Source: Bacillota bacterium (GTDB lineage: Bacteria > Bacillota > Clostridia > Peptostreptococcales > Anaerovoracaceae). From it: a stretch of 64,000 bases of DNA. The translations under genes and the position numbers were made by a program. Shown in pieces: positions 30,323-42,102 of the stretch; the stretch's first letter is position 1, and every line of letters begins with the position of its first letter. Below the pieces are notes generated by a model. It had not been told where the DNA came from. It saw only the letters and a program-made list of their open reading frames with translations, and made no database searches. The DNA lies in the NCBI GenBank assembly GCA_022769485.1, contig JALEJU010000018.1, forward strand, positions 1 through 64,000. Direction: 5' to 3'.

Positions 30323-30350
30323 TTGACATTTTTTCGGGAAATGATATAAT
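30323..30350 (+). promoter_or_regulatory. Promoter of nickel/peptide-type ABC operon
   Basis: TTGACA (30323-30328), 16 bases, TATAAT (30345-30350): near-consensus and strong. Confidence 0.88.
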
Positions 30351-30356
30351 GATCGA

Positions 30357-30489
30357 CGGTTCATCTTAAGAAAAGATGTTTGTTCTCAGAAGAGAAACCT
30401 TGAAAGCAAAACGAATCAAGAAGATTGTAATTTGCAATGTTCCGGATTCGTTTTTTTGTTTTGCAGGCCGCGGCGAGAGGAGGAAAAGG
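30357..30489 (+). promoter_or_regulatory. Leader with attenuator terminator, class unknown
   Basis: A ~130-base leader of the ABC/nickel operon. It has hairpin arms CATCTTAAGAAAAGATG (30362-30378) and GTTCTC..GAGAAAC (~30382-30398). It ends in an intrinsic terminator: AAAACGAATC (30408-30417) with GATTCGTTTT (30445-30454), inner ATTG..CAAT and seven T. The terminator ends ~30 bases before the first start codon, so expression must need antitermination. It does not show the GGCA/GCAG modules of the known NiCo riboswitch. Signal unknown. Confidence 0.65.
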
Positions 30490-31515
30490 ATGAACAGGAA
30501 AACCTGGGTTTATATCTGCAAAAAATTTGCACAGCTGGTACTTACGCTGCTGGTGCTTTCTCTCGTCGTATTTCTTGTTTCGCGGCTGGCGCCCGGCGAC
30601 CCGCTGCGCTCTTTTTACGGAGACGCAGTGGAGCGCATGAGCACGGAGCAGCAGGAAGCGGCCAGGGAACGCCTGGGTTTAAACGAAGGGTTGCTTCAGC
30701 AGTATATAAACTGGATTTCCGGTGCTGTACAGGGAGATTTCGGCATTTCTTTTAAATATAAGCAGGATGTGCTGGATGTGATCGGACAGGTTTGGGGAAA
30801 TACGTTTATACTGACTGTCATCTGTCTGGTACTGATTCTTTTGCTGGGTATGGCGCTGGCGGTTTTCTGCGTCAGTCATGAAGGGGAGCTGATTGACCGG
30901 GCAATCTGCAAAATCGGCGTTGCCGTGAGCAGTATTCCGGAATTTTTTGCGGCTCTGGTGCTGGTATTGATTTTTTCCGTCAATTTGGGGATTCTGCCTT
31001 CCGGTGGGGTGTATTCCATCGGCGGGGGAAGTCTTTCTGACCGGGCAGTCCATTTAATTCTTCCGGTGAGCGCTATCGTGATTACCCATCTGTGGTACTG
31101 CGCTTATCTTATGCGAAACAAGCTGTCGGAGGAAGTGCGGAAGGAATACGTTCTGCTGTACCGGGTAAAAGGCGTGTCCCGGAGGCGGATTCTCTGGGTG
31201 CATTGTATGAAAAACAGTATGCCGGCCATTGTCAGCATGATGGCGATTTTTCTGCCGCACCTGCTGGGAGGCGCGTATATCATAGAGATGGTATTCTCCT
31301 ATCCGGGACTGGGGCGGCTTGGTTTTGAAAGCGCAAAGTACCATGATTATAATCTGCTGATGGTAATCTCCCTTTTGACAGGGGCGGCGGTTATTTTAGC
31401 CAACATGGCAGCGCAGATTATCAACGAGAAGCTGGACGCCCGCATGGAATATGACCGCACGGAGCATGCGGAGGAAAATAGAAATTCCTGCCCGGGAGGT
31501 GGTTCTTTTGAATAG
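30490..31515 (+). CDS. Nickel/oligopeptide ABC transporter permease (NikB/OppB type)
   Basis: 341 residues, ATG 30490 after GAGGAGG. One N-terminal membrane helix (LVLTLLVLSLVVFLVSRLAP-GDP), then the permease core of five further helices. Family features are RLAPGDPLRSFYGD, FGISFKYKQDVLDVI, the ATPase-contact loop YRVKGVSRRRILWVHCMKNS, and VFSYPGLGRLGFESA. It forms the pore with the permease encoded downstream. Its stop overlaps that gene by eight bases. Because lar genes follow, nickel is a likely cargo (inference); a peptide role cannot be excluded. Confidence 0.92.
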   Translation: MNRKTWVYICKKFAQLVLTLLVLSLVVFLVSRLAPGDPLRSFYGDAVERMSTEQQEAARERLGLNEGLLQQYINWISGAVQGDFGISFKYKQDVLDVIGQVWGNTFILTVICLVLILLLGMALAVFCVSHEGELIDRAICKIGVAVSSIPEFFAALVLVLIFSVNLGILPSGGVYSIGGGSLSDRAVHLILPVSAIVITHLWYCAYLMRNKLSEEVRKEYVLLYRVKGVSRRRILWVHCMKNSMPAIVSMMAIFLPHLLGGAYIIEMVFSYPGLGRLGFESAKYHDYNLLMVISLLTGAAVILANMAAQIINEKLDARMEYDRTEHAEENRNSCPGGGSFE

Positions 31516-32320
31516 AAAACGGCCTTATTTTACGATTGCTTTGTTAGGCGTAATTGTTTTAGGATGCCTGTTCGCTGAGGTTATAATGCCCTGCGATCCG
31601 ACGAAAATGAATCTGGCGGAAGTCAATCAGGCTCCTTCTGCCGCGCATCTTTTCGGTACGGATACTATGGGGCGGGACATTTTTTCCATGATCTGGTACG
31701 GCGGGCGTATTTCCCTGTTTATCGGCTGTCTGGCGACTTTGATTTCCACCGGTATCGCTATGGTATACGGTTGTTTAGCGGGACTGGCGGGAGAATGGGC
31801 TGATGATCTCCTGATGCGCTTTACGGACATTCTGATGAGCGTACCTCAGATTTTGCCGGTGATCTTTATTCAAGCTGTATTCGGCGAGCCTACCGCGTTT
31901 TCTATGGCCGCGGTCATCGGAATTACCGGCTGGATGGCGGTATCCAAAATGGTGCGCAGCGAGGTGCGGCAGATGCGCCGGTCGGAATACGTTCTGGCGG
32001 CTCGTATGATGGGCGGAGGCTTTTTCTATATTTTGCGGACGCACTTAGCACCGAATTTTCTGCCTTCCATTTTATTTATGGTAGTTACCAATCTGGGAAG
32101 TGCCATCGCCATGGAAGCCACCCTCAGTTATCTGGGAATCGGGCTGCCTGCGAATATTATTTCCTGGGGAAGCCTTATGGCACTGTCTCAGAAAGTGCTG
32201 CTGACCGGTTCCTGGTGGCTGCTGCTTATGCCCGGCCTGTTTCTGGCGGCGACTTTGATCTGTTTTACGGAGCTGGGTGAATGGAAGCGGATGAATGGCC
32301 GCAGAGAGCGGCTGATCTAA
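31508..32320 (+). CDS. Nickel/oligopeptide ABC transporter permease (NikC/OppC type)
   Basis: 270 residues. TTG 31508 is chosen because GGGAGGT lies seven bases upstream; an in-frame ATG at 31451 would overlap the previous gene by 65 bases and add a charged, unlikely extension. HLFGTDTMGRDIFSMIWYGG is the NikC/OppC signature. GWMAVSKMVRSEVRQMR and EYVLAARMMGGGFFYILRTH (ATPase loop) follow, then LSYLGIGLPANIISWGSLM near the end. Second membrane subunit of the importer. Confidence 0.92.
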   Translation: MNRKRPYFTIALLGVIVLGCLFAEVIMPCDPTKMNLAEVNQAPSAAHLFGTDTMGRDIFSMIWYGGRISLFIGCLATLISTGIAMVYGCLAGLAGEWADDLLMRFTDILMSVPQILPVIFIQAVFGEPTAFSMAAVIGITGWMAVSKMVRSEVRQMRRSEYVLAARMMGGGFFYILRTHLAPNFLPSILFMVVTNLGSAIAMEATLSYLGIGLPANIISWGSLMALSQKVLLTGSWWLLLMPGLFLAATLICFTELGEWKRMNGRRERLI

Positions 32321-32404
32321 AAATAACGTGATTGCTTTTCATGAAAACGGTTGTGCAGGAAGCACTTCCCGAAATAGAAAGAGTAGGGGGAGAGGAATTT
32401 GAAA

Positions 32405-33940
32405 ATGAAAAAAATACTGTCTGCTGTATTGATATTGAGTATGGTTCTCTGTTTTGCTGCCTGCGGCGCGGATGAGGCGAAAACCCAAGGGAGTACGCTG
32501 GTATATGGCAGTACGGATTACACTGCCATCAACCCGGCTCTATACGAACACGGTGAGATCAATTTGCTGCTGTTCTTAGGGCTGACTGCTCACGACGGAG
32601 AAAATAATATTGTGCCCGCGGCGGCGGAATCGTGGAAATGGGATGGAGCTGCCAACACTTATACCTTTACCCTGCGGGACGGCTTAGTTTTCCACGATGG
32701 CGAGCCTTTGACCGCAAAAGATGTGAAGTATACGATTGAAGCTATTAAAAATCCGGATAACGGTTCGGAAAACGCATCTAATTTTGAAGATGTAGTAGGC
32801 GTAACCGTTTTGGACGATCTGCATGTGGCAATTGAACTGGAAGCCCCCAATGTGGCTATGCTGGATTACTTGACAATCGGTATTTTACCGGCGCATCTGC
32901 TGGAAGGAAAGGATCTGGTCACGGATGATTTTAACCGGAACCCCGTGGGAGCGGGGCCGTACAAGCTGGTATCCTGGGATATGGGACAGAGTATTATCTT
33001 GGAGAAGTTTGACGATTTCTATCTGGGTGCGCCTGAAATTGATAATGTGATCTTTAAAATCGTAGATGATTCCGATACAAGAGCCTTGCAGCTGGAAAGC
33101 GGCGAGCTGGATTTCGCCCAGATTACGCCTAAGGCCATGGGTAAATTCGAGAAACTGGACGGGTATCGGGTTTACAAAATGGACACAGCGGATTATCGGG
33201 GCATCATGTATAATTTTAACAGCGATTTCTTCAGCAAGTATCCGGAGCTTCCGGGCATTTTGAGTTACGGTGTGGACAGAGAAGCTATCGTGGACAGTGT
33301 TCTTTTGGGACACGGCCAGACGGCCTATTCCCCTTTGCAGAAAGGTCCCTACAACAATCCGGAAATCGAAAAATTTGAATATAATCCGGATCTCTGCCGA
33401 ACGCTTTTGGAAGAAGACGGATGGGAAAAAGGAGAAGACGGTTATTATTACAAGAACGGCGATCAATTGGCTTTTAAGATCTGCAACGGACAGGCGGATC
33501 AGGTTCGCATCGATATGTCCAACATCTGTGCGCAGAATTTCCGGGAAATCGGCATCAATGCGGTTGTTGATATTGTTGCGGAAACCGACTGGGAAAAGCA
33601 GGATGCATATTTAATCGGCTGGGGGAGCCCCTTCGATCCCGATGACCACACCTATAAAGTGTTCGGTACAGGGCAGGGAGCAAACTACAATTACTATTCC
33701 AATGAAAAAGTGGATTCTCTTTTGAAGCAGGCCAGAGAGCTGGAAACGTATGAAGAAAGGCTTCCCCTGTATCAGGAATTTCAGGAAGAACTGACGAAGG
33801 ATCTGCCGTATACATTTATTGCATATATTGATGCGATTTACGCAGGAAAAGATACCATTCACGGCATTACGGAGGATACCGTTTTAGGGCATCACGGCGT
33901 GGGCATCTTCTGGAATATTTACGACTGGACTATAGAATAG
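32405..33940 (+). CDS. Nickel/peptide-type solute-binding lipoprotein
   Basis: 511 residues, ATG 32405; TTG 32399 just upstream is also close to GGGGAGAGG. Lipobox FAAC (Cys ~20). Solute-binding family 5: RDGLVFHDGEPLTAKDVKYT, NPVGAGPYKLVSWD, ILSYGVDREAIVDSVLLGHG, WEKQDAYLIGWGSPFDPDDH. Family 5 includes NikA/CntA nickel binders and peptide binders; the pocket cannot be judged by eye. It delivers substrate to the two permeases encoded upstream. Confidence 0.92.
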   Translation: MKKILSAVLILSMVLCFAACGADEAKTQGSTLVYGSTDYTAINPALYEHGEINLLLFLGLTAHDGENNIVPAAAESWKWDGAANTYTFTLRDGLVFHDGEPLTAKDVKYTIEAIKNPDNGSENASNFEDVVGVTVLDDLHVAIELEAPNVAMLDYLTIGILPAHLLEGKDLVTDDFNRNPVGAGPYKLVSWDMGQSIILEKFDDFYLGAPEIDNVIFKIVDDSDTRALQLESGELDFAQITPKAMGKFEKLDGYRVYKMDTADYRGIMYNFNSDFFSKYPELPGILSYGVDREAIVDSVLLGHGQTAYSPLQKGPYNNPEIEKFEYNPDLCRTLLEEDGWEKGEDGYYYKNGDQLAFKICNGQADQVRIDMSNICAQNFREIGINAVVDIVAETDWEKQDAYLIGWGSPFDPDDHTYKVFGTGQGANYNYYSNEKVDSLLKQARELETYEERLPLYQEFQEELTKDLPYTFIAYIDAIYAGKDTIHGITEDTVLGHHGVGIFWNIYDWTIE

Positions 33941-33979
33941 CCGGAAACCCGGCTGACGGGGAGCGGCTGTAAAGAGAAA

Positions 33980-34031
33980 TGCCGGGACGGTGAGCATCCG
34001 GGAGATGGAAGTCAGGATGCGGGGCCCGGCA
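33980..34031 (+). repeat. Nested intercistronic hairpin
   Basis: TGCCGGG (33980-33986) pairs with CCCGGCA (34025-34031), and inside it GCATCC (33994-33999) pairs with GGATGC (34015-34020). No T run, so it is not a standard terminator. It could stabilise the 3' end of the binding-protein message and lower ATPase expression. Confidence 0.55.
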
Positions 34032-34068
34032 GCTCAGTGAAAACGAGATAAAATGGCGGGTGAAAAAT

Positions 34069-35682
34069 ATGGAACCTTTGCTGAAAATTGAAGATTTGCA
34101 TGTTTCTTTTGAAACGCCGGGTCATGAACAGCCGGTTCTTCGGGGAGTGGATTTGTCTATGGATCGAGGGGAAATTGTGGCTCTTGTGGGAGAATCCGGC
34201 TGCGGGAAAACCGTACTTTGTAAAACTTTGCTGCAAATTTTATGCTCTAAGGGGCGCATCCGGCAGGGACGGATTTTTTTAGACGGAGAGGATCTGCTTC
34301 TGCGTTCGGAATCGGAGATGGAACAGCGCAGAGGGCAGGAGATTTCCATGGTATTTCAAGATCCTTTTACTTCTCTGGATCCGGTCGTTTCGGTAGGAAA
34401 TCAAATTGCGGAAGTGCTGCGGCTGCAAGGCGGACTGAGCCGCAAAGCGGCAAAAGAAAAGGCCGTCAGGCTGATGGGACAGGTGGGAATTGACCGGGCG
34501 GAGCAGCGTTATTATCAGATGCCCCATCATTTTTCCGGAGGTATGCGGCAGCGCGCAGGCATCGCCATTGCTTTGGCCGGAGATCCGAAGCTGCTGCTGG
34601 CGGATGAGCCTACCACCTCCTTAGATCCGGAGATCCAAAAGCAGATTCTGCATCTGCTGCAGGAAATTCGAAAGGAGCTGCGGCTTTCCATTCTGTTTAT
34701 CACCCACGACTTAAGCTTGGTGGAGGGATTTGCCGACCGGGTGGCTATTATGGAGGCCGGCCGGATTGTAGAGATGGGACTTGTGGAGGAGGTGTTCCGG
34801 CGACCCCGACAGGAATATACAAAGCGGCTGCTCCGTTACCTGGACTACGGAAAAGGCCGGGGGCATACCCACGGAGATATCCATTTTCACGACGGGAAAG
34901 CCCACAGTCACAGGCATGGACCCGGGCATGCGCAGGAACACATTCACAGTCTTAAGCAGGATTGCGAATCGGCGGGGTGCCGGGATTCCTGTCCGGACAG
35001 CGGGCGGGTTTTCCCTGTGGAACCGGGCTTTTCGCAAGGTCGGGAAAAATGGATTGAAGTTCGGGGATTGTGCAAGGACTTTAAGCTGCACGGAAAGACG
35101 GCAGTTCGGGTATTGGATCATCTGGATTTGGATATTTACCGGGGCGAGGTTCTGGGAATTATAGGACCATCCGGTCGGGGAAAGTCAACCTTGGCCAAAT
35201 GCCTGATGGGACTGGAGCAGCCTGCTGCGGGGGAAATCAGGTATTTGGGGGAGAACTTGAAAGGAAACGGCAGAATCCGGCGGCAGATGATTTTTCAGGA
35301 TTCCGCCGCGGCTTTTAACCCCAGAAAAACCCTCGGGGAATCCATCGGCGAGCCGCTGCGTATTCTGCGGGGCAGAAAGCCGGAAAGACAGGAGATTTTT
35401 GAACTTATGGATCAAGCGGAGCTGTCCCGGCAGCTGGCGGATAAATATCCGTACGAAGTATCGGGAGGACAGCGGCAGAGAGCGGCCATTGCCAGGGCGA
35501 TTTCCACCGATCCGGAGCTGTTGATTGCGGACGAGCCTATTTCGTCTTTGGATGTCAGCATTCAGGCGCAGATTATCCATCTGTTTAAAAAATTGCAGCG
35601 GGAGCGGGGGCTGACGCTGGTGCTGATCGCGCATGACCTGCCTATGGTGCAGCATATCAGCGACCGCATTATAGAGTTGTAA
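34069..35682 (+). CDS. Fused dual ABC ATPase with His/Cys-rich linker
   Basis: 537 residues. Two complete ATPase domains in one chain, equivalent to NikD+NikE or OppD+OppF. Domain 1 (~1-260): GESGCGKT, HHFSGGMRQR, LLADEPTTSLDP, FITHD. Domain 2 (~328-537): GPSGRGKST, VSGGQRQR, LIADEPISSLD, IAHD. The joining linker (~266-308) has ten His in about 30 residues (GHTHGDIHFHDGKAHSHRHG, then GHAQEHIH), then Cys 299, 304 and 308. Such a cluster suits Ni(II) or Zn(II) storage or sensing. Start ATG 34069 follows GCGGGTGA. A terminator closes the transporter unit. Confidence 0.92.
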   Translation: MEPLLKIEDLHVSFETPGHEQPVLRGVDLSMDRGEIVALVGESGCGKTVLCKTLLQILCSKGRIRQGRIFLDGEDLLLRSESEMEQRRGQEISMVFQDPFTSLDPVVSVGNQIAEVLRLQGGLSRKAAKEKAVRLMGQVGIDRAEQRYYQMPHHFSGGMRQRAGIAIALAGDPKLLLADEPTTSLDPEIQKQILHLLQEIRKELRLSILFITHDLSLVEGFADRVAIMEAGRIVEMGLVEEVFRRPRQEYTKRLLRYLDYGKGRGHTHGDIHFHDGKAHSHRHGPGHAQEHIHSLKQDCESAGCRDSCPDSGRVFPVEPGFSQGREKWIEVRGLCKDFKLHGKTAVRVLDHLDLDIYRGEVLGIIGPSGRGKSTLAKCLMGLEQPAAGEIRYLGENLKGNGRIRRQMIFQDSAAAFNPRKTLGESIGEPLRILRGRKPERQEIFELMDQAELSRQLADKYPYEVSGGQRQRAAIARAISTDPELLIADEPISSLDVSIQAQIIHLFKKLQRERGLTLVLIAHDLPMVQHISDRIIEL

Positions 35683-35785: not shown

Positions 35786-36472
35786 ATGAAAAAGGAAGAG
35801 CGTGAACTGCTTCTGCGGGAGCGGCTGGAAGAGATGAAGACGTACGAACGGGCCTTTTACGGGAAGGACGTTTTTTATGTGGCCGGTATGGACGAGGCAG
35901 GACGAGGGCCGCTGGCCGGCCCGGTGGTAGCTGCCGCTGTAATTCTGCCGCCGGATTTCGACTTGCTTGGGGTGGATGATTCTAAAAAATTGACAGAAAA
36001 GAAGAGGGAAGCCCTTTTTGAGCCTATTAAAGAGCAGGCTGTGGCTTACGGAATGGGTATGGCGGATCATCGGACAATAGATGAAATCAACATTTTAGAA
36101 GCCACAAAACTGGCGATGAAACGGGCCGTAGAGGCGCTGGAGGTAAGGCTGGCAGAAAAACGGCCGGGAGGTGCGGTTCAGCATCTTTTGATCGATGCGC
36201 TGACTCTGAAGGATGTGCCCATTCCCCAAACGGGGATTGTAAAAGGAGATTCCAAAAGTGTTTCCATTGCGGCGGCTTCTATTTTGGCAAAGGTGACCAG
36301 AGACCGGATGATGGTGGAGTACGACATCCGTTATCCCGGCTACGGGTTTGCATCCAACAAAGGGTATGGGACAAAGGCACATTACGCAGGAATTGAGACA
36401 CAGGGGATTTGCCCCATCCATCGAAAGACGTTTTTAAAATCGGTTTTGCAGGGGAAGCTTTATGAGAAATGA
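35786..36472 (+). CDS. rnhB: Ribonuclease HII
   Basis: 228 residues. [20 protein letters not shown] holds the catalytic DE, then [20 protein letters not shown] (Asp), [21 protein letters not shown] and [10 protein letters not shown]. It cleaves RNA in RNA/DNA hybrids and single ribonucleotides in DNA. A ~35-residue N-terminal helical extension is common in Bacillota. TATAAT at 35757 suggests its own promoter. Its end overlaps larE by 11 bases, so it leads the lar unit. Confidence 0.96.
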
Positions 36473-37289
36473 AAAATACGATGCGCTGGGAAAGCTGCTT
36501 TTAGGGTACGGCAGTGCGGCGGTGGCTTTCTCCGGCGGTGTGGACAGCACCTTTCTGCTTACGGCAGCGCGGGAGGTTCTGGGGGAAAACGCATTTGCGA
36601 TTTTTGCCGACAGCCCTGTGGTTATGGAGCAGGAACGGCAGGAATGCCTGGCATTTTGCCGGGAAAAGGGGATACGGCTGATTCGGCTGACAGTTACAGC
36701 CGAAGAGATGGAGACATCCTGGGAAAACAGCCCGGAGCGCTGCTATTATTGTAAACGGCTGTTATTTTTTAAAATGAAAGAAGCGGCGGGGGATGCGGTT
36801 CTCGCGGAGGGAACCAATGTTGATGACCTGTCGGATTACCGGCCGGGAATCCGGGCGTTGAGGGAGCTTGGAATCCAAAGTCCTCTGCTGGCTGCAGGAT
36901 ACACAAAAGAGGAAATCCGCCGGGAGCTGCGGGAAAGAAATCTAAAAGTCTGGGAAAAGCCCGCTTATGCCTGCCTGGCTTCGCGGATTCCTTACGGCGA
37001 GATGATTACGGAGGATAAACTGCGAAAAATCGACCGGGCGGAACAGGGGCTTCGGAGTCTGGGGTTTCGCCAGCTTCGGGTTCGCTGTCTGGAAAGAGGG
37101 ACGAAAGGACTTGAAGCCCGGGTTGAGGTTCTGCCGGAGGCTGTGGAACGGCTGCGGGAAGCCGCCTGCTTTTCGGAAGCGGAAAAAATCGTGCGGGAGG
37201 CAGGGTTTTCCGCGCTGTCCGTTGACCCTAAGGGTTACCGGAGAGGAAGCTTAAACCGGGGACTGGAAACCATACGGACGGCAGATTGA
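36462..37289 (+). CDS. larE: LarE, sulfur transferase for nickel-pincer cofactor
   Basis: 275 residues. PP-loop ATPase motif [12 protein letters not shown] adenylates the pincer precursor carboxylates before thiolation. The protein has a CxxC pair (Cys94, Cys97 in [11 protein letters not shown]) and Cys171 ([12 protein letters not shown]). The latter corresponds to the sacrificial Cys176 of Lactobacillus LarE. Three-Cys LarE proteins in other organisms are reported to carry a [4Fe-4S] cluster and act catalytically, so this one may be of that kind. It overlaps rnhB by 11 bases; larB follows after 83 bases. Confidence 0.93.
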
Positions 37290-37372: not shown

Positions 37373-38116
37373 GTGAATCAGGCGGATATTCAGCATTTAT
37401 TGGAGCAGGTGGCTTCGGGGGCGGTTTTGCCTTCGGAGGCTCTGGAGCAATTAAAGACTTTGCCGTTTCGGGAGCTGAGCTGCGCAAACGTGGACGGACA
37501 CCGGGCGCTTCGAACCGGAAGAAACGAAGTGATCTTTGCCCAAGGCAAAACGCCGGAACAGACGGCGGAAATCGCGGGTGCCCTTTGGGAGCAGAATCAT
37601 GCGGTTATGGCGACCAGAGCAAAGCGCGCGCATTTCGAGGCGGTTCTGCAGGTGGTTCCGGAGGCAGTATATCATGCGGAAGCACAGGTTATAACCGCCG
37701 GAAAAGAGTCCTCCGAAGCACCGGGCCGTGTGGCGGTGGTTACGGCGGGGACGTCGGATATTCCGGCAGCGGAAGAAGCCTGCGCGGTTTTGGAATTTCA
37801 GGGGCACAATACAGACCGGATCTACGATGTGGGTGTTTCGGGAATTCACCGCCTCTTTGAGAAACTGGATCGGATTCGCGGGGCGGACGCGGTCATTGTG
37901 GCGGCAGGCATGGAAGGAGCGTTGGCGTCCGTTATAGGAGGATTAACAGAACGGCCTGTGATTGCCCTGCCCACAGGGGTGGGCTACGGTGCCAGCTTCG
38001 GAGGACTTGCGGCGCTGCTGGCAATGTTGAACAGCTGCGCCAATGGTATCGCCGTGGTGAATATTGACAACGGTTACGGCGCCGCCTGTCTTGCGGATAA
38101 AATCCTGAGACGATAG
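37373..38116 (+). CDS. larB: LarB, pincer cofactor carboxylase/hydrolase
   Basis: 247 residues, GTG start seven bases after AAGGAG. The PurE-like C-terminal half has VAVVTAGTSDIPAAEEA, YDVGVSGIHRL, VIVAAGMEGALASVIGG, PVIALPTGVGYGASFGG and NIDNGYGAA. LarB carboxylates nicotinic acid adenine dinucleotide and cleaves it to the biscarboxylate mononucleotide, the first step of the nickel-pincer pathway. The downstream gap to larC holds two short hairpins. Confidence 0.94.
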   Translation: MNQADIQHLLEQVASGAVLPSEALEQLKTLPFRELSCANVDGHRALRTGRNEVIFAQGKTPEQTAEIAGALWEQNHAVMATRAKRAHFEAVLQVVPEAVYHAEAQVITAGKESSEAPGRVAVVTAGTSDIPAAEEACAVLEFQGHNTDRIYDVGVSGIHRLFEKLDRIRGADAVIVAAGMEGALASVIGGLTERPVIALPTGVGYGASFGGLAALLAMLNSCANGIAVVNIDNGYGAACLADKILRR

Positions 38117-38199: not shown

Positions 38200-38238
38200 G
38201 GCCGGAAACAAACGGCCTGTCGGCATGAGGAGCCGACA
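38200..38238 (+). repeat. Twin hairpins between larB and larC
   Basis: GGCCG..CGGCC (38200-38217) directly followed by TGTCGGC..GCCGACA (38218-38238). No T run; probably RNA stability or translation elements. Confidence 0.5.
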
Positions 38239-38275
38239 GAACCGTATTTTAGATTTTAAAGGGAACGGAATATTC

Positions 38276-39130
38276 ATGGGTAAGATTTTGTATTTTGATT
38301 GTTATGCGGGCATCAGCGGAGATTTGACCTTAGGCGCTTTTGTAGATCTGGGAGTGAAGCCGGAGTATTTGCAGGCACAGTTGGATCTGCTTGGAATTTC
38401 GGATGAATTTGAACTGACGGCAGAGCCTAAAAAGGTACGGGAAATCTGCGGAACTCAGGTGGGTGTGCATATTACCGGCCGGCATCATCACGACCACAGT
38501 CATGCCTGCAATCACAGCTGCGGGGCAGAATCTCCTCATGTTCACGAAAGCCGAAGCGGCCATGTGCACGGCCGGTCGCTGGCGGATATTTTGGATTTGA
38601 TCCGGCGTTCCGGCTTAAATGAAAACACCAAGCGGTTAGCCGGGCGGATTTTTCGCGTCATCGGCGAAGCGGAAGCGAAGGTTCATGCAGTTCCTCTTCA
38701 GGATGTGCATTTTCACGAGGTAGGAGCGGTGGATTCCATCGTGGATGTGATCGGCGCCGCCGTCTGTATTGATCTGCTGAAGCCGGACGCGATTTACTGC
38801 TCTCCTGTTCACGACGGAAGCGGTTTTATTGAATGCGCCCACGGAACGATTCCGGTTCCGGTTCCTGCAGTGGTGGAACTTTTAAAAAACAGCGGTATTG
38901 CCATCGTGTCCGATGATGTACCTACGGAGATGGTGACCCCTACCGGAATGGGTATTTTAAAAGGTGCGGGGGCTGTCTGCCGCCGCATTCCCCCTATGGT
39001 GGTAGAAGCCTCCGGAACCGGTTACGGCACCCGTGATACGGGAAAAGCTTCCGGGCTGCGGATTCTCTTTGGCACGGATCGGAAAGATTTGCTTGACAAA
39101 CCCGAAGACTCCGATAAAATAAAAGAATAG
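38276..39130 (+). CDS. larC: LarC1-only nickel insertion protein (no LarC2 half)
   Basis: 284 residues from ATG 38276. YFDCYAGISGDLTLGAFVDL, a His-rich insert at ~70-99 (HHHDHSHACNHSC, PHVHESRSGHVHG), VHFHEVGAVDSIVDVIGAA, GTIPVPVPAVVELL, ELVTPTG-like EMVTPTGMG, and GYGTRDT. These are the LarC1 domain. Full LarC proteins continue with a LarC2 domain (CTP-dependent cyclometallase part), in some species reached by a ribosomal frameshift. No LarC2 coding is found in any frame after 39060. The last codons coincide with the valS promoter (39093-39120). It may work with a LarC2 encoded elsewhere or be inactive. Confidence 0.88.
   Translation: MGKILYFDCYAGISGDLTLGAFVDLGVKPEYLQAQLDLLGISDEFELTAEPKKVREICGTQVGVHITGRHHHDHSHACNHSCGAESPHVHESRSGHVHGRSLADILDLIRRSGLNENTKRLAGRIFRVIGEAEAKVHAVPLQDVHFHEVGAVDSIVDVIGAAVCIDLLKPDAIYCSPVHDGSGFIECAHGTIPVPVPAVVELLKNSGIAIVSDDVPTEMVTPTGMGILKGAGAVCRRIPPMVVEASGTGYGTRDTGKASGLRILFGTDRKDLLDKPEDSDKIKE
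39093..39120 (+). promoter_or_regulatory. valS promoter inside the larC 3' end
   Basis: TTGACA (39093-39098), 16 bases, TAAAAT (39115-39120). Transcription would start near 39127, at the 5' end of the T-box. Confidence 0.8.
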
Positions 39131-39384
39131 CGGGTTTAATGCCCGGACAATTTGATAGAATGGATAGAGCGCGAGGAACCGGAGGAGTAATTTCGATACA
39201 GCTTTTTCAGAGAGGGAATCCGAACTCCGAAAGGAGGGGGCTGTGAGATTCCGAAGCATGACGGAATGAAGGTTGCCGGGGAGCGCCGGATAAAAAGAGA
39301 GCCGCCGCGAAGCCGGCGGAATTAAGGTGGTACCGCGGAATTTCCGTCCTTATGCAGACTGCACGAGGGCGGTATTTTTTTACG
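39127..39384 (+). promoter_or_regulatory. T-box riboswitch of valS (specifier GUU)
   Basis: Stem I with AGTAATTTCG on the 5' side, and GAA-G-GTT-G-CCGG on the 3' side. The specifier GTT (Val) is at 39272-39274. T-box core AAGGTGGTACCGCGG is at 39325-39339, with bulge UGGU for tRNA with A73. The terminator arm CCGTCCT pairs with AGGGCGG, then seven T (39344-39381). It gives read-through of valS when tRNA-Val is uncharged. Confidence 0.93.
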
Positions 39385-39429: not shown

Positions 39430-42102
39430 ATGGAAAAAAATCTGGCAAAAACCTACAATCCGAAAGATTTTGAGGATCGGATTTATGAGAGCTGGGAGAA
39501 GAACGGCTGCTTCCGCCCCAGCGGCGATAAGTCGAAAGAAACCTTTACTATCGTAATGCCGCCCCCGAACATTACGGGGCAGCTGCACATGGGGCATGCC
39601 CTTGACCATACCCTGCAGGATGTGCTGACGCGCTGGAAAAGAATGCAGGGCTTCGATACGCTGTGGCTGCCCGGCAGCGACCATGCCAGCATTGCTACGG
39701 AGGTTAAGGTCGTAGATAAGATACGTAAAGAAGAAGGAAAAACAAAAGAAGAACTGGGTCGGGAAGAATTCCTGAAAAGAGCCTGGGATTGGAAAAGGGA
39801 ATACGGCGGAAAGATCACACAGCAGTGCAGAAAGCTGGGAGACTCCTGCGATTGGGAGAGAGAACGCTTTACCATGGACGAGGGCTGCAGCAAGGCGGTC
39901 AACGAAACTTTCGTGCGGCTGTATGAAAAAGGATTGATCTACAAGGGGCACAGAATTATTAACTGGTGTCCCTGCTGCGGCACTTCCCTGTCCGACGCGG
40001 AAGTGGAGCATGAGGATAAAAACGGCAAGTACTACTATGTTCGCTACGACGGTGAAGACGGCGGAGAAGGCATCGTAGTCGCAACCTCCCGCCCCGAAAC
40101 CATGTTCGGCGACGTGGCTATCGCAGTCAGCCCGGAGGATGAGCGGTATAAAGATATGGTGGGCAAAAATGTAATTCTGCCCCTGGTTGGGAAAGCAATT
40201 CCTATTATTACAGACCCTTATCCGGACCCGGAAAAAGGAACCGGCGCTGTAAAAATCACTCCGGCTCACGACCCCAACGACTTTGAAGTGGGCAAGCGCC
40301 ACGGTCTGGACGATCCTTGCTGTATCAACAGCGATGCGACTATGAATGAACTGGCCGGAAAGTACGCAGGCATGGATCGTTATGAGTGCCGGAAGGCATG
40401 GCTGGCGGATCTGGAAGCGGCAGGCCACCTGGTCAAGGTAGAAGATATGGTCATTCCCGTAGGTGAATGCTACCGCTGCGGCACTGTTGTGGAACCCATG
40501 ATCTCCGACCAATGGTTTGTAAAGATGGAGGAGTTGGCGAAGCCCGCCATCGAAGTGGAACAGAGCGGTCAGCTTCAGCTGGTTCCTGACCGGTTTGAAA
40601 AGATTTATCTTCACTGGCTGGAAGAAATCCGCGATTGGTGCATTTCCCGCCAGCTTTGGTGGGGGCACAGGATACCGGCGTACTATTGCCGGGATTGCGG
40701 AGAGATGATGGTTTGTAGGGAAGCGCCTCATACTTGCAGCAAATGCGGAAGCACGAACCTCAAACAGGATGAAGACGTACTGGACACTTGGTTCAGCTCC
40801 GCACTCTGGCCTTTCTCCACATTGGGATGGCCGGAAGAGACTGAAGACTTGAAACGCTACTATCCCACCAGCGTGCTGGTAACCGGTTACGATATTATTT
40901 TCTTCTGGATTATCCGCATGGTCTTTTCGGGTATGGAATTGATGGGCGAACGTCCCTTTGATTATGTATATGTTCACGGCCTTGTCCGGGATGCGGAAGG
41001 CCGTAAGATGAGCAAGTCTCTGGGTAACGGCATCGACCCGTTGGAAATTATCGATCAGTACGGAGCCGACGCGCTGCGGTTTATGCTGGCAACAGGTATC
41101 ACGCCGGGAAACGATATGCGGTTTAAAATGGATCGTCTGGAATCCTGCCGGAATTTTGCCAACAAGCTTTGGAATGCGTCCCGTTTCGTAATTATGAATT
41201 TGACGGATGAGGAGGGAAACTTCCTGCCCATGGCGGAGGGGAATCCGGCGTCTATGAACCTGCAGGATGAAGATAAGTGGATTCTGACTCAGGTAAACGA
41301 GGCGGTAAAAGAAATCAGCGGCAATATGGATAAATTCGAACTGGCGCTGGCGGGGCAGAAGGTTTGCGACCTGATCTGGAACAGCTACTGCGACTGGTAT
41401 ATCGAGCTGGTCAAGAACCGTCTCTACCAGGGCAGCGAAGAAGATAAGGAAGTTGCTCGTTTTGTTTTGGTAAAAGCCTTAAAAGATATGCTGGCATTGC
41501 TGCATCCTTTTATGCCGTTCATTACGGAAGAAATCTGGAGTTTCCTCCCCGGCGACGGCGGATTTTTAATCAACGCGCCTCTGCCGGTATATAAAGAGGG
41601 CGGGTCTTATCCTTCGGAAGCGAAACGAATGGAGATGGCTATGGAAATCATCCGTTCCGTTCGTTCTATCCGGGCGGAAGCCGGCGCGGTTCCTTCCAGA
41701 AAGCTGCGGGCATATATTTACGCGGAAGGAGAAGAACGCGCGGCGGCGGAAGGCGGCGAAAGCTATATTAAGAACCTTGCCAACGTTACGGAATTGATTT
41801 TTGCGGATGAGAAATCGCAGATCCCCGAAGATGTTATGTCTGCGGTTATCACCGGCGCGGAAATCTTTGTTCCGCTGGATGACTTGCTGGATTACAATGC
41901 GGAATTCGAGAGATTGAAGAAGGAGCAGGAACGCTTGCAGAATGAGGTAAAGAGAACCTCCGGCAAGCTGTCCAACGAAGGTTTTACGGCAAAAGCGCCG
42001 GAAGCGGTTGTGGCTGCGGAACGGGAAAAGCTGACTAATTATCAGGATATGCTTTCCAAGGTAGAGGAACGATTGGCTCTGGTAGAACAGAAATTAAAGT
42101 AA
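39430..42102 (+). CDS. valS: Valyl-tRNA synthetase
   Basis: 890 residues, ATG 39430 seven bases after GAGGAG. Class I signatures: PPPNITGQLHMGHALDHT (HIGH box) and GRKMSKSLGNGIDP (KMSKS). The editing domain has TSRPETMFGDVA, and the tail after ~810 is the ValRS coiled coil (EFERLKKEQERLQNEV). It charges tRNA-Val and hydrolyses mischarged Thr-tRNA. Controlled by the valine T-box upstream. Confidence 0.98.
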   Translation: MEKNLAKTYNPKDFEDRIYESWEKNGCFRPSGDKSKETFTIVMPPPNITGQLHMGHALDHTLQDVLTRWKRMQGFDTLWLPGSDHASIATEVKVVDKIRKEEGKTKEELGREEFLKRAWDWKREYGGKITQQCRKLGDSCDWERERFTMDEGCSKAVNETFVRLYEKGLIYKGHRIINWCPCCGTSLSDAEVEHEDKNGKYYYVRYDGEDGGEGIVVATSRPETMFGDVAIAVSPEDERYKDMVGKNVILPLVGKAIPIITDPYPDPEKGTGAVKITPAHDPNDFEVGKRHGLDDPCCINSDATMNELAGKYAGMDRYECRKAWLADLEAAGHLVKVEDMVIPVGECYRCGTVVEPMISDQWFVKMEELAKPAIEVEQSGQLQLVPDRFEKIYLHWLEEIRDWCISRQLWWGHRIPAYYCRDCGEMMVCREAPHTCSKCGSTNLKQDEDVLDTWFSSALWPFSTLGWPEETEDLKRYYPTSVLVTGYDIIFFWIIRMVFSGMELMGERPFDYVYVHGLVRDAEGRKMSKSLGNGIDPLEIIDQYGADALRFMLATGITPGNDMRFKMDRLESCRNFANKLWNASRFVIMNLTDEEGNFLPMAEGNPASMNLQDEDKWILTQVNEAVKEISGNMDKFELALAGQKVCDLIWNSYCDWYIELVKNRLYQGSEEDKEVARFVLVKALKDMLALLHPFMPFITEEIWSFLPGDGGFLINAPLPVYKEGGSYPSEAKRMEMAMEIIRSVRSIRAEAGAVPSRKLRAYIYAEGEERAAAEGGESYIKNLANVTELIFADEKSQIPEDVMSAVITGAEIFVPLDDLLDYNAEFERLKKEQERLQNEVKRTSGKLSNEGFTAKAPEAVVAAEREKLTNYQDMLSKVEERLALVEQKLK

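Follow-up and report, generated by a model that had tools for sequence, protein, structure and literature searches.

The lar gene locus and its neighbours

The window, by which we mean the whole 64-kb stretch of DNA analysed, encodes three proteins of the nickel-pincer nucleotide (Lar) pathway, LarE, LarB and LarC, between the genes of a Nik/Opp-type transporter and the valyl-tRNA synthetase gene valS. The features discussed below are:

30376-35682, forward strand: Nik/Opp-type ABC transporter (permease, permease, substrate-binding protein, and fused ATPase with a His-rich linker), from NCBIfam matches
35786-36472, forward strand: the neighbouring gene rnhB, ribonuclease HII (NF000594, 302 bits)
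36462-37289, forward strand: larE, ATP-dependent sulfur transferase (TIGR00268, 268 bits, cut-off 150)
37373-38116, forward strand: larB, pyridinium carboxylase/hydrolase (NF033503, 276 bits, cut-off 175)
38276-39130, forward strand: larC, LarC1-only form (ATG start, 284 codons; TIGR00299 and PF01969 matches)
38474-38578, forward strand: linker of larC rich in His (near residues 67-101), where a stretch of some 37 residues has 10 His and 2 Cys (pLDDT about 40-50)
39093-39120, forward strand: probable valS promoter, TTGACA-16-TAAAAT, in the last larC codons (11 of 12 positions match; rare in the window; same position in the relative G060)
39165-39354, forward strand: valS T-box leader (RF00230, 77.3 bits, E 4e-17 over the full model)
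39358-39373, forward strand: terminator-like hairpin with a T run, closing the T-box leader
39431-42102, forward strand: valS, valyl-tRNA synthetase (likely ATG start near 39431; longest ORF from 39352)

In characterised systems, LarB and LarE together make P2TMN, into which LarC inserts nickel in a CTP-dependent manner via a cytidinylylated intermediate, and about 15% of surveyed genomes encode larB, larC and larE without larA (PMC11796402). Both partners of LarC are present here, larE and larB adjoining larC on its upstream side and scoring above their cut-offs. An inverted repeat, CTGTCGGC...GCCGACAG (38216-38240), lies between larB and larC and is possibly a weak terminator or processing site.

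The transporter has its best NCBIfam matches to Opp2B/NikB, NikC-type, NikA-type and NikD/NikE families, of which NikD and NikE are the only ones to pass their cut-offs, and it is a probable nickel importer. A perfect TTGACA-16-TATAAT (30323-30350) occurs just upstream of its genes. The window genome also contains an ORF with a PF00374 match, to the N-terminal portion of the large subunits of NiFe hydrogenases, a pattern that would point to an Ech-type enzyme. Nickel therefore need not serve the Lar proteins alone, and this weakens the transporter as proof of a nickel supply for them, although it supports a nickel economy in the organism.

A LarC protein reduced to its first domain

The larC product matches positions 1-164 of the 165 in TIGR00299 (LarC1) with 201.5 bits, the NCBI equivalog cut-off being 90, and positions 1-235 of PF01969, whose 375 positions take in both LarC domains, with nothing matched beyond. 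The reading frame thus ends after LarC1, 18 residues past the end of that domain, and no LarC2-like stretch follows in any frame of the window, as an earlier note on this DNA had concluded. That note had also considered a LarC2 reached by frameshift or a split LarC2 encoded elsewhere. The first, like any hidden LarC2 downstream of larC, is ruled out since no LarC2-like frame, whether overlapping or adjoining larC, exists in the window. The second found no support in the whole genome to which the window belongs (1.49 Mb in 42 contigs, estimated 100% complete), in which PF01969 matches larC alone at E≤10 and nothing reaches that threshold against a LarC2 profile, built from the sequences of 16 relatives, that scores 1e-65 to 1e-67 in four positive-control genomes. 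Within the reach of the assembly and the profile search, LarC2 as a fused, frameshifted or separate gene is accordingly ruled out here.

Set beside full-length LarC (PF01969; TIGR00299; PDB 12bi), the window protein is alike in its complete LarC1 domain, conserved motifs, His-rich linker, and larB and larE neighbours, but it lacks LarC2, the domain solved in PDB 6bwo, 6bwq and 6bwr, carries lineage-specific residues, and has lost N259. Structural work on those three entries is reported to have LarC2 binding CTP. In split larC1/larC2 pairs with overlapping frames, of the frameshift type known from Lactobacillus, LarC1 stops at this same domain boundary, but there a LarC2 ORF overlaps or follows, whereas the window genome has none. 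A search confined to open-access literature, and a weak negative for that reason, yielded no description of a LarC without LarC2.

An AlphaFold2 model of the larC product (pLDDT 87, pTM 0.85) is confident for the domain and of low confidence for the His-rich linker and for the residues after about 269, which form the promoter-bearing tail. Fold searches of this model against the PDB (to April 2026) gave no match at E≤0.001 by Foldseek and a best VIA Z of 2.8, but full-length LarC 12bi, detectable by sequence, was itself absent from the fold lists, so that this result says nothing about the fold.

The junction between larC and valS

The last 13 codons of larC, after LFGTDRKD, encode LLDKPEDSDKIKE followed by the stop. 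Within them the earlier note had read a probable valS promoter, and this reading holds: TTGACA (39093-39098) is separated by 16 nt from TAAAAT (39115-39120), 44 nt upstream of the T-box leader. Promoter-like sites with 11 or 12 of 12 matches number six in the 64 kb, both strands included, and the assignment is convincing because of its context, a valine T-box leader and then valS. The leader had gone unmentioned in the earlier reading of the window. Like other valS leaders of family RF00230, it has a Stem I specifier GUU (Val; 39272-39274, read by eye from the sequence), an antiterminator T-box sequence, GGTGGTACCGCGG (39326-39338), and a terminator-like hairpin, and it stands directly upstream of the aminoacyl-tRNA synthetase gene that its specifier matches; it differs in having its promoter inside the coding sequence of the upstream gene and in its score of 77 bits, below the Rfam gathering score of 93. 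The longest valS ORF resembles the ValS proteins of relatives from about residue 22-27 onwards.

The same arrangement occurs in G060, a member of another genus of the family, where TTGACA in the last larC1 codons is followed after 16 nt by TACAAT spanning the stop codon, then by a homologous T-box leader (90.7 bits) and valS; the TTGACA-bearing codons read CTTGACAAA in the window and CTTGACAAA in G060. The overlap of promoter and larC is therefore shared with a distant relative. It is a regulatory overlap, not a sign of gene damage, and valS is very probably transcribed, to judge from these sequences, from within the larC tail.

Gene order among relatives points to an old junction. The order larB-larC1-valS is kept in many genera: valS is the next gene after larC1 in seven genomes (G011, G029, G038, G054, G060, G074 and G077), and in two (G050 and G073) larC1 and the valS start share four bases. 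Since these layouts recur across relatives, the junction must be old. Full-length larC runs straight into valS in G065 and G079, and larC of G012 (L120:5208-6212) ends inside LarC2, matching positions 8-96 of the 158 in the profile (E 4e-10), and is followed by a TTGACA promoter and valS, which gives it the look of an intermediate in the loss of LarC2. Because full-length larC abuts valS in the first two genomes and LarC2 is cut short in the third, the simplest history is that LarC2 disappeared, probably at the point where larC meets valS, a loss that is ancient and shared. A deletion fusing larC1 to the valS control region, as the earlier note proposed, is thus upheld as regards the place of the loss but not as a local or recent event, the form being common to many genera.

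Short LarC proteins in the Anaerovoracaceae

Relatives from the family Anaerovoracaceae, sampled at one genome per genus, were searched for PF01969, LarA, LarB and LarE. LarC1-only genes turned up in 22 genomes besides that of the window, 23 in all, of which 22 (the window genome and 21 others) have no full LarC. The complete LarC1-only ORFs, 24 from the 23 genomes, all stop 1-23 aa past the end of the LarC1 domain. At E≤10 the LarC2 profile gave no match across the 22 genomes whose only LarC is short, save for one chance hit (E 0.26) in G058. Relatives carrying the same short LarC, which the earlier note would have counted against its own reading, therefore exist at the level of sequence. In one further relative, G039, LarC1 (L111:6887-7387) and LarC2 (L110:6174-7040) lie on different contigs as an apparently unlinked split LarC.

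In a tree of LarC1 domains, the window gene falls into a 28-row group (support 100/98) that holds nearly all LarC1-only genes of the family: 22 LarC1-only rows, four cut by contig ends, the intermediate G012 and one full-length protein, G061. A single LarC1-only origin excluding G061 is not rejected (AU p 0.125). Possible further origins are represented by G070, the second copy in G058, Pelosinus, Clostridium drakei and a Gastranaerophilales genome. The last (G150, L193:1822-3246), from outside Bacillota, has a larB-like gene paired with a LarC1-only gene, and a search of it for LarC2 and LarA found neither. Judged by this distribution, the LarC1-only form is ancient and common to many genera.

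Of the 40 positions conserved in full or split LarC, the window larC retains 38. Nearly fixed residues peculiar to the LarC1-only group are D180, T217, G230 and A233; N259, invariant in full and split LarC and located a few residues ahead of the domain end, has been lost by most of its members. One sub-lineage, including G060, G058 and G049, has lost D153 and D157 and is more divergent. A linker with at least four His is found in 15 of 24 LarC1-only proteins and in 29 of 30 full-length ones. According to hand counts from the profile-search tables, LarE is present in all 22 genomes with only a short LarC, and LarB scores above its cut-off in 21 of them, the exception being G038 (77% complete); among the 30 family genomes with no LarC match, LarE occurs in one (G013) and LarB in none. 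G013 (90% complete) has LarA and LarE, with LarB and LarC not detected. The retention of LarB and LarE beside LarC1 makes it likely that the short LarC is functional. The broken pathway that the earlier note had offered as one outcome fits poorly with frames that are intact across genera, with these conserved positions and with partners kept almost without exception; the LarC1-only proteins are probably an old, functional LarC subfamily devoid of LarC2.

Candidate clients of the cofactor

The window genome has no LarA (PF09861) match at E≤10, which rules out a divergent LarA as the client. Most LarC1-only genomes likewise have no LarA, but so do many full-LarC members of the family, and the absence is thus not specific to the short form. 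LarA with every invariant catalytic residue occurs in two LarC1-only draft genomes, G019 and G049 (90% and 97% complete).

Beyond these, Pelosinus propionicus (G149:C47, L217:5148-10481) carries in one direction a larA-like gene, two chromate-transporter-like genes, a LarC1-only gene, larE and larB. The divergent larA-like gene, about 1.5 kb from larC1, keeps the equivalents of the cofactor-binding Lys and His and has one catalytic His replaced by Asn. Clostridium drakei has a larC1-larE pair. G070 has a second Lar cluster (L098:1430-11513) that encodes DUF362, MFS, BKACE (beta-keto acid cleavage enzyme), LarB, cyclase, 3HCDH (3-hydroxyacyl-CoA dehydrogenase), LarC1-only and LarE proteins, with its full larC elsewhere. 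A full LarC is also present in Pelosinus and C. drakei, so that LarC2 may help in trans in these three cases but not in the window genome, G019 or G049 as assembled. DUF362, found too just upstream of a Pelosinus larC1-larE-larB set (L141:2750-3847), is a possible client family, although its absence from the window genome rules it out as a general client.

Proposed metal insertion without LarC2

We give an even chance to the explanation that larC belongs to a conserved, functional stand-alone LarC1 subfamily of the nickel-pincer cofactor insertion protein, whose LarC2 was lost in an ancestor within the Anaerovoracaceae and which would still insert metal. LarB would make the pyridinium biscarboxylate nucleotide, LarE would thiolate it, and LarC1 alone, dispensing with the CTP-binding LarC2 domain, would insert the metal by means of its His-rich linker and the conserved FHEVG / HDG / HG-PVPVPAV / TEM-TP core, and its nickel would probably come from the neighbouring Nik-type importer. 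The product would be the nickel-pincer nucleotide, the CTP activation step being bypassed. On an economical reading, the metal-insertion activity resides in LarC1, and LarC2 is dispensable in some lineages. Counting against it are the CTP requirement of characterised LarC, the lack of LarA in the window genome, the full LarC that accompanies the short one in Pelosinus, C. drakei and G070, the draft state of G019 and G049, and the divergence of the G060, G058 and G049 sub-lineage.

Alternatively, the short proteins might make a different product, either one with another metal or a pyridinium thiocarboxylate nucleotide processed in part, to serve a client other than LarA. The scarcity of LarA among LarC1-only genomes, the signature residues that differ in this group, and G070, in which a full LarC beside a separate LarC1-only cluster suggests two parallel systems, all speak for this. 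We nevertheless consider it unlikely, if deserving attention, given the intact LarA of G019 and G049, the cofactor-binding residues kept by the Pelosinus LarA homologue, and the many full-LarC genomes equally devoid of LarA. An unrelated protein such as a cytidylyltransferase could also have replaced LarC2 in the CTP-dependent activation of P2TMN. CTP activation belongs to the characterised mechanism and LarC2 is separable, frameshifted and split pairs being common and G039 having it on another contig, but such a replacement seems improbable: larC1 has no linked candidate partner in the window, and what the inspected loci share are housekeeping neighbours (folD, a cyclohydrolase-like gene, rnhB, rbgA and valS, named by eye). 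We find it hard to believe that larC1 is a remnant of a pathway broken by deletion, as the joint absence of LarC2 and LarA from the window genome and a junction consistent with LarC2 deletion might suggest, when the same form, with intact frames and conserved motifs, recurs in many genera together with LarB and LarE. Finally, a LarC2 gene that is missing from the 42-contig assembly, imaginable after the example of G039, is barely credible in a genome estimated complete and with LarC2 absent from all 22 short-LarC-only genomes.

Returning to the stand-alone LarC1, we propose more tentatively that a widespread LarC subfamily completes a nickel-pincer or related metal-pincer cofactor while dispensing with LarC2, and hence with the known chemistry of CTP activation, and that in some lineages the client is an enzyme other than LarA. 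In the accepted pathway, nickel insertion proceeds through the CTP-dependent cytidinylylated intermediate, and CTP is linked to the LarC2 domain. Because a conserved lineage has LarB, LarE and LarC1 but no LarC2, and in places an intact LarA as well, the necessity of LarC2 and CTP becomes directly testable, and likewise the question of which LarC domain houses the site of metal insertion. The same lineage bears on the question of what uses the nickel-pincer cofactor in genomes devoid of LarA, and the conservation of the LarC1-only form casts doubt on LarC2 being always needed.
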